From: Opitutales bacterium
GTDB taxonomy: Bacteria > Verrucomicrobiota > Verrucomicrobiia > Opitutales > UBA953
Length of the DNA: 64,000 nucleotides
Assembly: GCA_017935025.1 (NCBI GenBank)
Contig: JAGBIL010000020.1
Coordinates: 1 to 64,000 of the forward strand
Direction of reading: 5' to 3'
The notes below the pieces were generated by a model. The model worked only from the letters and a program-made list of their open reading frames with translations, did not search any database and was not told where the DNA came from. A program made the translations under genes and the position numbers. Positions 2,842-26,196 of this stretch are shown in pieces; the stretch's first letter is position 1; the number at the start of each line of letters is the position of its first letter.

Positions 2842-4911
2842 TTAGAATTCGGGAATCACATATTCTTCGGATTCGTTGTTCCCGTCAGCTTCATCGGAAA
2901 AACCTTCCCCAAACGAAATCAGCGCGCGCATACTCTCAACGTAACGAGACTTCGGCAACAATGCGGACACACGATCCAACAGCTCCGACGCGGCAGCCGT
3001 CCCCTGCGGGAACGCCCGATAAATTTCTGCACATTCCAGCAGATACGGAGCGTTAAAGGGAGCCATCTCTTCCGCCCGCTTTAAGGTCTTTTCCACCGCG
3101 CCGAAATCACCGACCATCATTTCCGCCGTCGCCCGCATCGGGTAATACGCGGGAACACTTTCGGAACACGCCAACGCCCGGTCGGAAGTCGCTCGAATGT
3201 ACTTTCCATACTCGGCGGACTTCATCGGATAGCGCTGACAATCGAAAACATATTTCATCGAAAGAGCGTTCCACGCATCGCCGTGCCCCGGAGATTTCCG
3301 AAGCGCCGAACGCAAATGCCGATCCGCTTTTTCCAATGCCGAAAAATCGACCTCCGCCTCCGGCAAACCCGTTTCCGCGCTCGAGAAAAACGGTTTCATC
3401 GCAAGAATTCCTTTTTGGTATTCCGCCTCTGTTTTAAATGTCGGAAGAAAAACGCCCAACAATATCGCGGGAACGACAAACGCCACCGGCAAAAGCACAT
3501 GGCGGCGATTTCCGCTGTAAATGATCATGCGCCGATGTTCCGCGCTCAAAAGGAATCCGGCAATTCCGCCGAAAATCGCACACGAAATAACCACGCCCGG
3601 AATGTGGCGCGGATAATCAATTGCAAAAAGCACGCCCACCGCAATCAATCCGCACAGTGTTCCCGCCAACGCAATACGCTCTTCCGGCAGGCTTCCGAGA
3701 TCAATAACTCCCATCTTGCGGCGAAGTTTCGCCCGTTCCGTATCCGCATACCAAGGCAGTTTCCTGCACGCGTGAACACCGCGTGCCATCAAAAGAACGA
3801 ACGGAACCGCGAAAAGCACAAGTCCGACCGCACCGTGCTCGGCAAGCACCGTCAGATAAAGGCTCCCGGCTGTAGTCGGATTCGTCTGCCACTGCGGCGT
3901 ACGATATTGCTCAAATTCATCCGAAAAACGTCCGGAACCGATCCCAAATACCGGATTTTCCTTAAACATTTCCAACGCCGCATACGGGAGCAAATACTTC
4001 GTTCCCGCGCCCAATTCCTCCTCCGAAAAATGCTTTTGAAGCGTACTCGGAATTTCCGCCGTTCTCAAGCAGCCGACATTCGTATTGGCATTGAAAAGCG
4101 CAAACACCGCACAGCCTGCCAGCACGCACCACAAAACGACCCGCGTCGCCCGCCGTTGCACCAGCAGAAGGACCGCAAGCGCTCCTCCGACAAACAGCCC
4201 GAGATAAACTCCCGCGTGGCGGGTAAAAACGATACCCAACAAAAACAGCACCGCCATATAAAGCCCGAAAAGTCGCGCCCAGAGCTTAAATCGCGGACTC
4301 ACGACCAATAGCGCCATCGCAAAAAATGCCAGCAAGAGCACGGCTCCGATTCCCGCCTGATTCCCGAAAGTCGAAAAAACTTCCCGCACCGTACTGCCGA
4401 TTCCGCCGCCGCTTTCAAGCGCCTGCATAGCCTCCTCGCCCGGCTTCAAAAATTCCGCCAGACCGGAAATCAGCGTCAACATCGCCGTCAATGCAATCAA
4501 CCACCAACGGGACTTCTTCGTTCTAGCAATATGAATCGCCACGAAAAACGCCATCAGCGGCAACATATTCACGCAAAACGAATACTGCGCGCGCCAAGGC
4601 GTTTCCGACAGCAAAAACATATCCGCCGCCAAAAATGCCATCCACGGGAAAAACCACAGCGTAATTCCGCTCACGCGAAAACCGCGCCCGATACGCGCCC
4701 AAAAAACGAGCAACTGCGCGCCTACCGCCAAAACCAGCAAGCCGAATGTATAAACGAGATACTGCGCATCCACGCCCCCGATCGAGAAAAACGTTTGCGC
4801 CGTCACGACGCCCAAAAGCACGACGATCGCCGCCGTCATACATCTCAAAAAGCGGTCAGACCATGAAGAAAATTCGAGAAGAAAAAATTTGCGCTGCTGC
4901 TCTAATTCCAT
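2842..4911 (-). CDS. O-antigen ligase/polymerase-like polytopic protein with TPR-like tail
   Basis: 689 residues. About a dozen hydrophobic segments fill residues 20-480, with a large loop containing FGIGSGRFSDEFEQYR and TAGSLYLTVLAEHGAVGL. This Wzy_C/WaaL-type signature (G-x-G ... N/T ... HN or EHG-x-x-G) marks enzymes that transfer or polymerise undecaprenyl-linked glycans at the periplasmic face. The last 200 residues are soluble, with helix pairs (ALEKADRHLRSALRKSPGHGDAWNAL; TLKRAEEMAPFNAPYLLECAEIY) that read as tetratricopeptide repeats, a common extension of this family. Start: ATG at 4911; TTG at 4917 is also possible. It could act on the glycan built by the 18.9-28.0 kb operon, but that is inference because the genes are far apart. 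Confidence 0.75.
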   Translation of the reverse strand: MELEQQRKFFLLEFSSWSDRFLRCMTAAIVVLLGVVTAQTFFSIGGVDAQYLVYTFGLLVLAVGAQLLVFWARIGRGFRVSGITLWFFPWMAFLAADMFLLSETPWRAQYSFCVNMLPLMAFFVAIHIARTKKSRWWLIALTAMLTLISGLAEFLKPGEEAMQALESGGGIGSTVREVFSTFGNQAGIGAVLLLAFFAMALLVVSPRFKLWARLFGLYMAVLFLLGIVFTRHAGVYLGLFVGGALAVLLLVQRRATRVVLWCVLAGCAVFALFNANTNVGCLRTAEIPSTLQKHFSEEELGAGTKYLLPYAALEMFKENPVFGIGSGRFSDEFEQYRTPQWQTNPTTAGSLYLTVLAEHGAVGLVLFAVPFVLLMARGVHACRKLPWYADTERAKLRRKMGVIDLGSLPEERIALAGTLCGLIAVGVLFAIDYPRHIPGVVISCAIFGGIAGFLLSAEHRRMIIYSGNRRHVLLPVAFVVPAILLGVFLPTFKTEAEYQKGILAMKPFFSSAETGLPEAEVDFSALEKADRHLRSALRKSPGHGDAWNALSMKYVFDCQRYPMKSAEYGKYIRATSDRALACSESVPAYYPMRATAEMMVGDFGAVEKTLKRAEEMAPFNAPYLLECAEIYRAFPQGTAAASELLDRVSALLPKSRYVESMRALISFGEGFSDEADGNNESEEYVIPEF

Positions 4912-22184: not shown

Positions 22185-22847
22185 TTATAATTCTGTTTTT
22201 CGGGCAGGATTGCCCGTGTAAAGAAATCCGTCTTTTGTTTTTCGCACGACAAAAGAGCCCGCCCCGATTCGGGTGTTATTTCCGATTTTCACATACTGCA
22301 AAACCGCACTTCTCATCCCGAAAAAGTTTCCGTCCCCGATCTGACAACCTCCGGAAATACGGGTTTCCGGAAACATCGCGTTCCCGTTCCCGATTTGAGA
22401 ATCGTGCCCGACCGAGAGCGAGCCCACAGCGATATTAAAATCGCCCAGCGAAACATTACAGCTAATGCGACTTCCCCAACCGACAACATTTCCGCGCCCC
22501 ACAGAGATAGATACCGGATCAAAAAACACGACATCCGGCGCTATCAAATTGGGAAAATAAATATTCGGATTTTTAATTTTTTCCGGAAGCGACAAAAGCA
22601 CCGCAGGTGTCGCAATCGCAACAACCACGCCAAGTTGCCGCGGGAACGCATTAAGGATGTCAATTCCGCCGAGTACTTCTCCGTAAGCATTACGCGTCCC
22701 GACGGGAACGCCATCGTCGAAAAAACCGATGAGCTTCCATTGCCCTTCCGACGGATTGGCTTCATTGATTTTACGAATCAGACACGCAATTTCGCGCCCG
22801 AAACCGCCCGCGCCGTAAATTGCAATTTCCCGCGTTCCCGTGCTCAT
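22185..22847 (-). CDS. NeuD/PglD-family sugar O- or N-acetyltransferase
   Basis: 220 residues. An N-terminal Rossmann-like domain (EIAIYGAGGFGREIACL) is joined to a left-handed beta-helix of hexapeptide repeats (about 95-200, for example VGRGNVVGWGSRISCNVSLGDF, shortened: VGRGNVVGWG). This is the NeuD/PglD arrangement that transfers an acetyl or other acyl group to a nucleotide- or nonulosonate-sugar. It lacks a convincing Asn-His-Asp set at the usual place but has GHDSQIG, so a catalytic His is possible. Its ATG overlaps the stop of the ATP-grasp gene (ATGA) in the present tract state. Confidence 0.82.
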   Translation of the reverse strand: MSTGTREIAIYGAGGFGREIACLIRKINEANPSEGQWKLIGFFDDGVPVGTRNAYGEVLGGIDILNAFPRQLGVVVAIATPAVLLSLPEKIKNPNIYFPNLIAPDVVFFDPVSISVGRGNVVGWGSRISCNVSLGDFNIAVGSLSVGHDSQIGNGNAMFPETRISGGCQIGDGNFFGMRSAVLQYVKIGNNTRIGAGSFVVRKTKDGFLYTGNPARKTEL

Positions 22848-24013
22848 GCGGCGCTCCTTTCGTTGTGCGCAAAACGTATTGCGTTTGTATTTTTACTGTC
22901 GGACAATCCGCGAAAATCAAAACGAAAAGCATTATCACGGCGAAAACCGCAACGGAACGCCGCCGCAAACGCGACACCGCGCCTCAGTTTACAATTTTCG
23001 GGGGGGGGGATTTCGGTTAAAATGTCACACTTCGCAAAGGCAACATTCGGCTTTGCCGTAAGGAGTTCTGCTCCGACATTTTCTCCTCGGAGCCATTTCA
23101 GAATTGCCAACGGCAAATTCACACCTGCTTCCTGCGAAAACGGATATCCGCCTCCGAACCGGGGATTCAACTCCAAAACGTAATACCGCCCGTCGCGTTC
23201 AAGAACATCGCAGTCCAAATTTGCGACGTGACGAAGCGCTTTTCCGATCTTAAATCCGATTTCGCGAATTTCGGCGTTATCCGCCGTCACCGCCTTGTCC
23301 GTTTCTCCGGCGCGCATCGCCAGTTTACGTTTCACGGAGACGGCGACCGTGTTCCCGTCTAAATCATTCATTACGTCCAAGCCGTATTCGGCATCCGTAA
23401 TCGCCTGTTGGATCAATATCTCTTCTTCCCGGGCAGAAGCGGTCGACAAAATTGATCGCGCAACTTTCCGGCGAACGATTTCGTAGGTTTCGAGAAGCTC
23501 CTCCCTGTCGCGAACAAATTCAATTCCGATAGAACCCGAGCCCCAGCGCGGTTTCAAAATCAACGGAAATACAAGTTCTCCGTTATCGAGAGCGGACAAC
23601 GCGTCCTGTAGCACAACAAAGGTCCTGGGGGTATTCAATCCGAGAGATTCCGCAAAACGGGCAGTCTTCAGCTTGTCGAAACAAATATCAATCACTTCCG
23701 GAGACGAAATGATGAGGCGCGTCCCGATTTTTTCAAAGCGTTCCCGCGCTGCCGCTAAAATAGGAAGTTCCAAATCGTTTAAGGAAATCAGCGCATCAAT
23801 CTTGTTTTTACGGCAAATTTCTTCGACGACACCCGTATAATCTTCGGCATAAACGGCGGGAACGCGCAGCGCAACATCCGCAAATGCAAGCGCAGGGGCG
23901 GTGAGCGACATATCCGTCGCAAAAATCTTTCCGCCGCCTACCGCGTCAAGAGCCGCCCGAAAATATTTCAGCAAATAGGCCCGCCGCCCCGCACAAGAAA
24001 AAAGTAAGTTCAT
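22844..24013 (-). CDS. ATP-grasp ligase with phase-variable C-terminal tail
   Basis: 389 residues. A CarB/PylC-like ATP-grasp fold: N-terminal Rossmann-like part (LLFSCAGRRAYLLKYFRAAL), ATP-binding block (FPLILKPRWGSGSIGIEFVRD) and metal-binding block (LELNPRFGGGYPFSQEAG). It should join a carboxylate to an amine via an acyl phosphate, for example an amino acid onto an amino sugar. The conserved domain ends near ILTEI (about residue 337); a run of ten C (23000-23009) follows, and the remaining 50 basic residues look unlike a folded domain. With C10 the frame reaches the next gene's ATG (ATGA overlap). With C9 or C11 translation stops within four to eight codons of the tract, about 130 nt short of it. 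Confidence 0.82.
   Translation of the reverse strand: MNLLFSCAGRRAYLLKYFRAALDAVGGGKIFATDMSLTAPALAFADVALRVPAVYAEDYTGVVEEICRKNKIDALISLNDLELPILAAARERFEKIGTRLIISSPEVIDICFDKLKTARFAESLGLNTPRTFVVLQDALSALDNGELVFPLILKPRWGSGSIGIEFVRDREELLETYEIVRRKVARSILSTASAREEEILIQQAITDAEYGLDVMNDLDGNTVAVSVKRKLAMRAGETDKAVTADNAEIREIGFKIGKALRHVANLDCDVLERDGRYYVLELNPRFGGGYPFSQEAGVNLPLAILKWLRGENVGAELLTAKPNVAFAKCDILTEIPPPENCKLRRGVAFAAAFRCGFRRDNAFRFDFRGLSDSKNTNAIRFAHNERSAA
23000..23009 (-). repeat. Poly-C tract (C10) at the 3' end of the ATP-grasp gene
   Basis: Ten C on the coding strand, flanked by ATC...GAA codons. The neighbouring frames hit stops almost at once (reading KIVN-stop for C9 and RKL-stop for C11 after the prolines), while C10 stays open to the ATGA junction with the acetyltransferase gene. 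Confidence 0.8.
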
Positions 24014-24031: not shown

Positions 24032-25486
24032 TTAGTTTGTTCCCGCTAAAAAATTCATGACTCCGCCCGTGTGCCAGAAGAGTGCGTTCCCGCGAAAGTC
24101 GCTTTGTTCGAGTTGTTTACTCATCCCGAAAAGAGCTTTTCCGGAATAAGTCGTGTCAAAAACGATTCCCGTTTCCCGAATCGTTTTTTCCAGAAAAATT
24201 TTCATCTCGCCGGAATATTTTTCGTATCCGCCGCAAAGGAAATCCGCACAGAAACGGATTCTCCCGTTAAAAACATCCGGAGAAATACCGTGTTCGACGG
24301 CGAGCTTTTTCGTAAAATCGGAGACCGCCTGCGCCCCGCGCTCTTCCTGTCGGGCAACGGAAATTCCGATGACTTTAACGTCGCCCCACCCTACTTTTTC
24401 CAGCCCGACCAAAATTCCTGCCTGCGTGGAGCCCGTTCCCGAAGCGTGAAAAATCACGTCCGGTTTCCACGCGTTCATTTCGCCGTAGGCGTAAAGCTCG
24501 GCGACGGCATTGACGTAAGCATTCCCGCCGGGAGAGTCATGCCCGCCGCCCGTGACGTAATAAGGTCTTTTCCCGTTGCGGCGGAAGCGTTCCATTGCCG
24601 CATCCATCGCGCCGGATATCTGATCGGCTTCGACAAATTCCGCAGTTGCGCCAAACACCCGGACAAGTGCCGCGTTCCCGCCGCCGGATTCAAAGCGTTC
24701 CCGCGAGCCGTGATAAACGATGTGGCACTCCCAGCCGTTCTTCGCCGCGAGGGCTGCCATCGCACGGTTGTGGTTTGACTGTATCCCGCCTGTCGTAACA
24801 AGAGCATCAATCCCGCAACGGAAGAATTCCCGCTCGTATTCCGCCGCCTTGCGCGCCTTGTTCCCGCCGCCGATTCCGGGGAACAAATCGTCTCGCACGA
24901 TTTTTATGTTTCGTCCGGAAAGTTTCATATCATGACAGAGGAAGAATTCCCGTTGCAGGACTTGGAAATTTTGCCCGACAATGGGGGGGGTAGAATAGAT
25001 CGCGTAGCGCAAACGGTCCTTTATTTTGCCGTTATTTATCACTTCCCGCCGCAAAACGCCTTCTAATGCAAATCCGCACTTTTCGTAAACCTTACGCGCC
25101 GGAGCATTGTCCGCATTTGTGTTGAGATAGACCTTTTCCAAGCCCATTTCGGAAAAAGCGTGAGCGCACATCAGGCTTACGACCCGGGAGCCGATGCCTC
25201 GCCCTTTTAACTCCGGGGAAACAAAAATGTAGAGCTCCGCCTTTTTGACTTCCGAATCAATATCGGTAAACCCGCCCATAGCAACGACTTCGCCCGTTGC
25301 GTCCTCAAACGCAAAATCCGCACGCGCCGGATTTTCACACACTCGCGTAAACCATGCTTGCGTTCCCGCAAGCGTCACCGGAAGCTGAATATTTAGCGTC
25401 GCATTGATGCGAACATCGTTCATCCACGCCACGCGAATCGGCAAGTCGCGCGCTTCCAGCGCCCGAAGAGTAATCTCTCCGCTCAT
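24032..25486 (-). CDS. GNAT acetyltransferase fused to a PLP-dependent ACC deaminase/D-cysteine desulfhydrase-like enzyme
   Basis: 484 residues. Residues 1-165 are a RimJ/RimL-type GNAT (ELYIFVSPELKGRGIGSRVV is the acetyl-CoA loop, shortened: GRGIGSRV), similar in type to PseH that acetylates a UDP-amino sugar. Residues about 185-484 are a fold-type II PLP enzyme with the Lys in GGGNKARK and the phosphate-binding HASGTGSTQAG. The join is a run of eight C (24983-24990). With C7 the GNAT would end in an ATGA overlap with an ATG at 24928 that opens a 298-residue PLP enzyme; with C9 it ends five nt before it. So the two may be made as separate proteins or as a fusion, depending on tract length. 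ATG at 25486 overlaps the stop of the preceding gene and has AAGGAG upstream. Confidence 0.8.
   Translation of the reverse strand: MSGEITLRALEARDLPIRVAWMNDVRINATLNIQLPVTLAGTQAWFTRVCENPARADFAFEDATGEVVAMGGFTDIDSEVKKAELYIFVSPELKGRGIGSRVVSLMCAHAFSEMGLEKVYLNTNADNAPARKVYEKCGFALEGVLRREVINNGKIKDRLRYAIYSTPPIVGQNFQVLQREFFLCHDMKLSGRNIKIVRDDLFPGIGGGNKARKAAEYEREFFRCGIDALVTTGGIQSNHNRAMAALAAKNGWECHIVYHGSRERFESGGGNAALVRVFGATAEFVEADQISGAMDAAMERFRRNGKRPYYVTGGGHDSPGGNAYVNAVAELYAYGEMNAWKPDVIFHASGTGSTQAGILVGLEKVGWGDVKVIGISVARQEERGAQAVSDFTKKLAVEHGISPDVFNGRIRFCADFLCGGYEKYSGEMKIFLEKTIRETGIVFDTTYSGKALFGMSKQLEQSDFRGNALFWHTGGVMNFLAGTN
24983..24990 (-). repeat. Poly-C tract (C8) at the GNAT/PLP-enzyme junction
   Basis: Eight C on the coding strand, between the end of the GNAT domain (RLRYAIYS) and the PLP-enzyme part. 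Length 8 gives a fused product; 7 or 9 gives two adjacent reading frames. See the gene entry for frame details. Confidence 0.8.
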
Positions 25487-26196
25487 GCGGCACTCCTTTC
25501 AAGCCCCGCACGAATTGAGACATTTTGAAACACTAACTCATTCCCGATTCGGGGGGGGGGCTGTTTAAATTTTAGGATTTTCGCGGGAACGCCGGCGACA
25601 ACAGCGTTCGCGGGAACGTCTTTAATCACAACCGCTCCCGCGCCGACCAGGCAGTCTTCTCCGAGATTTTTCACTCCGGTCATAATTGTCGCGCTGATTC
25701 CGACATAGGAAAATTTCTCTGCAACCATTGATGCCCCGAAATTAACGCCCGTAGACAAAAATGTCCCCTCTTTCAACACCGTATGATGTGCGAGGTGAAC
25801 ACCCATGGAAATCATCACATAATCACGGATCTCCGCATACGGCATAATCGTGGTTCCGAGCAAAATATATACACCCTGCCCGACTTTCACGTTCGGGGAA
25901 ATAACGACGGACGGGTGGATGTAGCTCGGAGTCTCGTAACCGAGGGCACGAGCTCTTTCCAGAAATTTGACACGTAATTTGTTGTTGCCGAGCGGACAGT
26001 AAACGGCACAAATCCCGTGCGTTGCGGAAAGTGTTTCAAGCAAATCAATCTTCCCGAGCACGGGAACGCCGCGAACAGACGTTCCTTGCACTCCGTCTGC
26101 GTCATCCAAGAAGCCGACAACATCAACCCCCGCCTCCTGCAAGTACGCGAGATAAACTTCTCCGTAAGTTCCGGCGCCGATAATTACGCTTTTCAT
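25483..26196 (-). CDS. PglD/NeuD-type UDP-amino-sugar acetyltransferase
   Basis: 237 residues. Rossmann-like N-terminus (SVIIGAGTYGEVYLAYL), then a left-handed beta-helix with hexapeptide repeats (SPNVKVGQGVYILLG; HLAHHTVLKEGTFLSTGVNFGA) ending in VVAGVPAKILKF, the usual end of the fold. The His pair in HLAHHT is a candidate for the general base. It follows the aminotransferase and phosphoglycosyl transferase genes as in bacillosamine pathways (PglE-PglC-PglD), so N-acetylation of UDP-4-amino-4,6-dideoxy-GlcNAc is likely. A run of ten C (25551-25560) follows the core; in this state the frame reads on for 23 more residues to an ATGA overlap with the GNAT gene. Confidence 0.85.
   Translation of the reverse strand: MKSVIIGAGTYGEVYLAYLQEAGVDVVGFLDDADGVQGTSVRGVPVLGKIDLLETLSATHGICAVYCPLGNNKLRVKFLERARALGYETPSYIHPSVVISPNVKVGQGVYILLGTTIMPYAEIRDYVMISMGVHLAHHTVLKEGTFLSTGVNFGASMVAEKFSYVGISATIMTGVKNLGEDCLVGAGAVVIKDVPANAVVAGVPAKILKFKQPPPRIGNELVFQNVSIRAGLERSAA
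25551..25560 (-). repeat. Poly-C tract (C10) at the 3' end of the acetyltransferase gene
   Basis: Ten C on the coding strand right after the codons for KFKQ. C9 would read PPPESGMS-stop (stop at 25533-25535) and C11 PPPPNRE-stop (25538-25540), both about 50 nt short of the next start; C10 runs to the ATGA overlap at 25483-25486. Confidence 0.8.

Follow-up and report, generated by a model that had tools for sequence, protein, structure and literature searches.

Organization of the glycan operon

In the genome of a gut Opitutales bacterium, a run of ten cytosines lies just behind the catalytic part of an ATP-grasp ligase gene, and the frame continues past it through a long open tail to the start of the next gene. 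The locus raises the question of whether the tract and its tail are a selected device, a part of the protein, or a consequence of the DNA that happens to lie between two genes. The window, which is the whole stretch of 64,000 nucleotides analyzed, belongs to one of the 46 contigs of a 2.03-Mb genome (G000). It was compared with species-level assemblies of the same genus, namely G005 and G003 (nearest at the locus), G001 and G006.

The minus strand carries a glycan operon in the order of a DegT-type aminotransferase, a sugar-phosphate transferase, the acetyltransferase PglD1, a GNAT-PALP protein, the ATP-grasp ligase, the acetyltransferase PglD2, a KAS III-like enzyme and an SDR. The names of the aminotransferase and the sugar-phosphate transferase are those we presume from reading the translations. 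The four genes around the tracts are as follows.

25483..26196, minus strand: PglD-type acetyltransferase 1 (PglD1); PglD_N 1.6e-10, Hexapep 1.1e-10
24032..25486, minus strand: GNAT acetyltransferase that the C8 register joins in frame to a PLP-dependent enzyme (PALP); Acetyltransf_3 3.1e-19, PALP 3.4e-25
22844..24013, minus strand: ATP-grasp ligase (PylC-like N-terminal part and ATP-grasp), 389 aa in the C10 register, a conserved enzyme to about residue 340, at the tract; Pfam PylC-like_N 7.7e-28, ATP-grasp_4 3.3e-11
22185..22847, minus strand: PglD-type acetyltransferase 2 (PglD2, hexapeptide), 3' neighbour of the ATP-grasp gene with an ATGA overlap; PglD_N 2.7e-10, Hexapep 7.5e-09

Three tracts and two tails are found within this part of the operon.

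25551..25560, minus strand: tract 1, C10, at the end of PglD1; C11 in G005 and C10 in G003 at the same site
25483..25550, minus strand: tail 1, 22 residues in the C10 register; length kept in relatives at about 70% DNA identity
24983..24990, minus strand: tract 2, C8, at the GNAT/PALP junction; C14 with separate genes in G005, assembly gap at the tract in G003
23000..23009, minus strand: tract 3, C10, candidate C-terminal phase-variation tract; C14 in G005 and C12 in G003 at the same site
22844..22999, minus strand: post-tract tail of 50 codons, apparently a non-conserved read-through of a toxin-antitoxin scar and of the ribosome-binding site of the next gene; no Pfam family, unbiased substitutions, ordinary openness

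A preliminary description of this DNA had reported a C10 tract followed by an open tail of 50 codons in the ATP-grasp gene, which agrees with our analysis; the TGA of the tail overlaps the ATG of PglD2 at 22847. The like layout that it had pointed out at 25.5 kb is also present, consisting of a C10 tract, a 22-residue tail ending in ERSAA, a Shine-Dalgarno sequence within the tail and an ATGA overlap at 25486-25483. Tract 2, which joins GNAT and PALP in a single frame, had not been mentioned there.

Tract registers alter only the C-terminus of the ATP-grasp ligase

Simulated lengths of tract 3 gave the long tail with C7, C10 and C13, and otherwise a stop after 3-4 codons. The early stops previously claimed for C9 and C11 were thus reproduced, at 3-4 codons after the tract, with the ends ...EIPPPKIVN* and ...EIPPPRKL*, respectively. 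Computed over C7-C15, the protein has either 340-344 or 388-390 residues. The ATP-grasp core is unbroken in all registers, and only the C-terminus is altered. Most complete ATP-grasp homologues outside the genus terminate a few residues past the motif AKCDxL, which corresponds to the position of the tract, and none of them has a tract there. Tract 3 is therefore a run longer than eight cytosines near the 3' end of its gene, past the conserved and catalytic part of the enzyme. With this position, and with no register in which the protein is lost, a classic ON/OFF translational contingency locus was rejected for tract 3.

A fusion of ATP-grasp and PglD by register change was also ruled out, as stops lie upstream in the PglD frame and no tract length joins the two. 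Natural fusions of this kind occur in three Bacteroidales homologues (L124, L133 and L135), each a single protein of about 567 residues that combines ATP-grasp and a PglD-type acetyltransferase. In L133 and L135 the next gene encodes an SDR, as in the cluster of the window.

For PglD1, the simulated registers C8, C9, C11 and C12 all lead to an early stop, and no register of tract 1 or tract 3 gives a fusion with the next gene. At tract 2, simulated C9 or C10 yields a separate GNAT that ends at the PALP start, and this start is reached in all three registers.

Tract lengths and registers differ between related genomes

At orthologous sites, the tract lengths in the window, G005 and G003 are 10, 11 and 10 for tract 1, and 10, 14 and 12 for tract 3. 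Tract 2 has 8 in the window and 14 in G005 (G14 on the plus strand, L021 9079-9092), and in G003 a gap (L022 5238-5395) flanked by runs of 14 and 15. All three tracts are pure at these sites although their flanks are 12-40% diverged from the window. Despite an identity of about 98% over the region, G003 and G005 are unlike in tracts 1 and 3. Both registers of tract 3 are present among the alleles: the ATP-grasp gene of G003 is in the short state, with a stop directly past the tract (STPPPRS*), whereas that of G005 is in the long state and runs about 250 codons past it.

G001 is a mosaic, in which the same post-tract stretch follows another acetyltransferase gene, likewise with C8 at its end; this places a boundary of upstream-gene exchange near the tract. 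As a separate observation, a paralogue in G006 has a G9 tract exactly at an ATP-grasp/HAD junction (L024 1174-1182).

The ATP-grasp tail is largely a toxin-antitoxin remnant

On the other strand, opposite the long tail of G005 and the corresponding open frames in G003 and G001, lies an antitoxin-toxin pair. In G005, a RelB-family antitoxin (8.8e-11) adjoins a YafQ-family toxin (3.4e-34; Pfam, both scored on the G005 proteins), and a YafQ match is found at the corresponding place in G003 and, behind its different acetyltransferase gene, in G001. The stretch of the relatives thus encodes RelB- and YafQ-family proteins in the order usual for DinJ-YafQ type II systems, whereas the window keeps the start of the antitoxin region alone.

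22844..22954, plus strand: what is left of a RelB/DinJ antitoxin gene, comprising its first six codons and the sequence upstream of them, with ACG in place of the start ATG at 22937-22939; from the alignment with G005, G003 and G001

A gapless alignment of the 3' part of the tail to the stretch of the relatives scores 102 and 118, where shuffled sequence reaches at most 33; the homology of the 5' part of the tail (first 60 nt) is weak. An intact DinJ-YafQ system in the window was rejected, given the altered start codon and the six codons left. The toxin and the remainder of the antitoxin are missing at this site, and no YafQ match was found in G000. Judged from these alignments, the tail is largely an antisense remnant of a toxin-antitoxin locus. 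Deletion of the pair in the lineage of the window appears more likely than insertion in the others, because the homology extends into the antitoxin codons.

The tails lack protein-like constraint

Both tails terminate in the same 18-nt block GAAAGGAGYGCCGCATGA, which occurs at exactly two sites in the window.

22844..22861, minus strand: ribosome-binding/start block GAAAGGAGCGCCGCATGA, translated ERSAA* in the tail frame; one of the two sites
25483..25500, minus strand: ribosome-binding/start block GAAAGGAGTGCCGCATGA (ERSAA*); the other site

As a conserved peptide motif ERSAA was rejected, for it is this block read in the frame of the ATGA overlap. Since the Shine-Dalgarno block stands at both junctions, the repeated design is a shared start block and not a peptide motif.

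The differences between the ATP-grasp tail and its relatives fall on the three codon positions as 9/9/7 and 8/6/7, with no excess at the third position, and a Pfam family search with the tail gave no match. Tail 1 behaves alike: its length of 68 nt is unchanged in the relatives, its sequence is changed, and the differences are distributed as 10/5/5, again with no third-position excess. The tail at L070/L108, considered as a possible positive control for constraint, showed none (13/9/9). The openness of the ATP-grasp tail is not significant as a sign of selection, in that 18% of dinucleotide shuffles also keep its frame free of stops, and in 46% at least one frame is open. Because TTA, CTA and TCA account for just 1% of the codons in genes, open antisense frames are common here.

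In the comparison of tails proposed in the preliminary description, the length of tail 1 is kept and its sequence is not, and the ATP-grasp tail has changed without codon-position bias. The conserved tail protein that it had named as the finding that would overturn its reading is absent, and the tail is no domain. Its further step from repeated layout to selection finds no support in an antisense remnant with unbiased substitutions, ordinary openness and a shared ribosome-binding block. What stands is that the tract matters, as indicated by orthologous sites with changed lengths and both states and by the many such tracts elsewhere in the genome; the tail and layout as a selected design are not supported.

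Poly-C tracts across the genome

Pattern searches over both strands of the genome found 72 runs of exactly C6, 9 of exactly C7 and 28 of at least C8. About 1.3 runs of at least C8 would be extrapolated from the shorter ones, so that the excess is about 20-fold, and these runs form a class of their own here. At the genome density, the chance of three tracts within 2.6 kb at one given place has a Poisson estimate of about 7e-6.

Elsewhere, C/G tracts are found in the gene of an MmeI-like type IIG enzyme (C15), in type I HsdS genes, and in genes for a glycosyltransferase of family 2, a polysaccharide pyruvyl transferase and a GDSL autotransporter-like protein. The tracts in the MmeI-like and HsdS genes (L065, L073 and L078/L079) suggest phase-variable restriction-modification. 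Other genes of this genome do lose their protein in the wrong register: a hexapeptide acetyltransferase, for instance, is OFF with G9 in G000 (L061) and ON with G11 in G005 (L100), in a stretch with 94% identity otherwise. The succession of gene, tract, open tail and next start recurs less exactly in a glycosyltransferase pair (L062) and a pyruvyl-transferase pair (L070). Several of the 28 tracts are intergenic, and some are beside terminator-like hairpins; C8-C10 runs adjoin such hairpins at L060, L068 and L069. C9 words are far commoner in G006 (349 counts) than in its relatives.

A model of C-terminal length switching

We propose, at a probability of about 0.68, that the C10 tract of the ATP-grasp gene is a real length-switching tract that confers C-terminal phase variation, and that the tail behind it is a toxin-antitoxin scar without selected protein information. 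In this model, the slippage-prone tract just behind the catalytic part would gain or lose one C, giving either a short form (the natural length plus 3-4 residues) or a long form translated across the intergenic DNA as far as the next start. The core enzyme would remain intact in every state. Because PglD2 carries a ribosome-binding site of its own, the switch would at most tune coupling. The tail would be the intergenic DNA left after deletion of the opposite-strand DinJ-YafQ pair, and its ERSAA end the Shine-Dalgarno sequence of the next gene read in the ATGA frame. The layout of the locus, the orthologous differences in length and register, the homology of the tail to the toxin-antitoxin locus and its lack of protein-like constraint are observed, whereas slippage within a population, and any effect that it may have on the enzyme or on coupling, is inferred.

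A tract in the last codons of a gene could also be tolerated and not selected. A possible, though not preferred, alternative holds that the tracts are neutral, being C-runs at gene ends that leave the enzyme unbroken and change in length without consequence. The position of tracts 1 and 3 past the conserved enzyme agrees with neutrality, as do the intergenic tracts, some of them next to hairpins, and the long mononucleotide repeats described at gene termini in Akkermansia (PMC3048395). It fits less well with the purity of three tracts at orthologous sites within diverged flanks, although slippage could also heal interruptions, and with the tracts inside the coding parts of typical contingency genes of the same genome.

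Selection might instead have acted on tract and layout together to switch translational coupling, with ribosomes brought as far as the ATGA in the long register, for synchronous production of the next enzyme, and the genes uncoupled in the short one. The recurring layout at two junctions here, and less exactly at the two gene pairs named above, would accord with this explanation, as would the PALP start that all three registers of tract 2 reach and the constant 68 nt of tail 1 despite its changed sequence. We regard it as unlikely, given that each downstream gene has its own Shine-Dalgarno sequence, that open frames of this length are common, that the ATP-grasp tail was reshaped by deletion, and that the short state is about as frequent in the relatives as the long one. 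Also doubtful is a broader conjecture drawn from the junctions, in which the tracts of glycan operons would act as stochastic switches that leave enzymes fused (GNAT-PALP), ATGA-coupled or uncoupled, with the intergenic DNA, including the scar, as a disposable linker.

Assembly errors in tract length, with the true gene end right after the tract, are very improbable. The relatives are metagenome-assembled, G003 has its N-gap at tract 2, and one G000 contig terminates in a C9 run; however, tracts occur at the same sites in three independent assemblies, C10 is within the usual accuracy of short reads, and mixed lengths would also cause an assembly to break at the tract. A conserved C-terminal domain can practically be dismissed, because the 22 of 33 residues that the 3' part of the tail shares with the end of the G001 open frame look protein-like only as long as codon positions are left aside, that frame lies opposite the RelB/YafQ pair, no family matches, substitutions are even over codon positions, and the tail is absent from homologues outside the genus.

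Comparison with known phase-variable systems

C-terminal phase variation has been described in Helicobacter canadensis, in which metabolic and surface genes carry poly-G/C tracts of at least 10 at their 3' end, and the registers add from a few to 104 residues, in one case merging a gene with the next (PMC2823697). The present locus belongs to another lineage, and its length variation is seen between related genomes, whereas that of H. canadensis is seen in reads. A toxin-antitoxin scar as the source of a tail, which applies to one tail here, also sets it apart from H. canadensis.

In Neisseria gonorrhoeae, 3' tracts switch the C-terminus of C-terminal phase-variable genes (PMC5320596). The same source also cites the poly-A tract of meningococcal pglB2, one register of which fuses two neighbouring genes. 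The GNAT-PALP junction at tract 2 has the same arrangement as this fusion of neighbours. Tracts 1 and 3 differ in having no fusion register, and the phylum and the genes are different. Akkermansia muciniphila, of the same phylum as the genome of the window, has capsule genes with long G/C tracts, C10 in the case of an acyltransferase, and phase variation was raised there as a possibility only; 3' tails and a between-species comparison of registers are not part of that report (PMC3048395). Literature searches on homopolymer phase variation in gut MAGs and on the Campylobacter poly-G cgtA-neuA fusion returned nothing useful.

The preferred reading, a length-switching tract followed by a scar, would extend C-terminal phase variation beyond Helicobacter and Neisseria, where it has been reported so far, to an uncultured genus of gut Verrucomicrobiota (Opitutales) in which poly-C tracts lie in a wide range of genes for surface glycans, restriction-modification and secreted proteins. 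Caution is also called for in annotating frames behind homopolymers, where a conserved-looking tail may arise from an antisense toxin-antitoxin scar and a ribosome-binding site.

An over-represented 9-mer

The 9-mer CGTTCCCGC occurs 106 times in the window (1.66 per kb), for example at 25361-25369 on the plus strand and 25583-25591 on the minus strand. It resembles a DNA uptake sequence, a kind of element for which our literature search found no description in Verrucomicrobia. The whole genome has 3514 copies, compared to 60 of the reversed control. Within the genus, it counts 3060-4396 in five other genomes and 743 and 336 in two, and it is at background level in all other genera searched.
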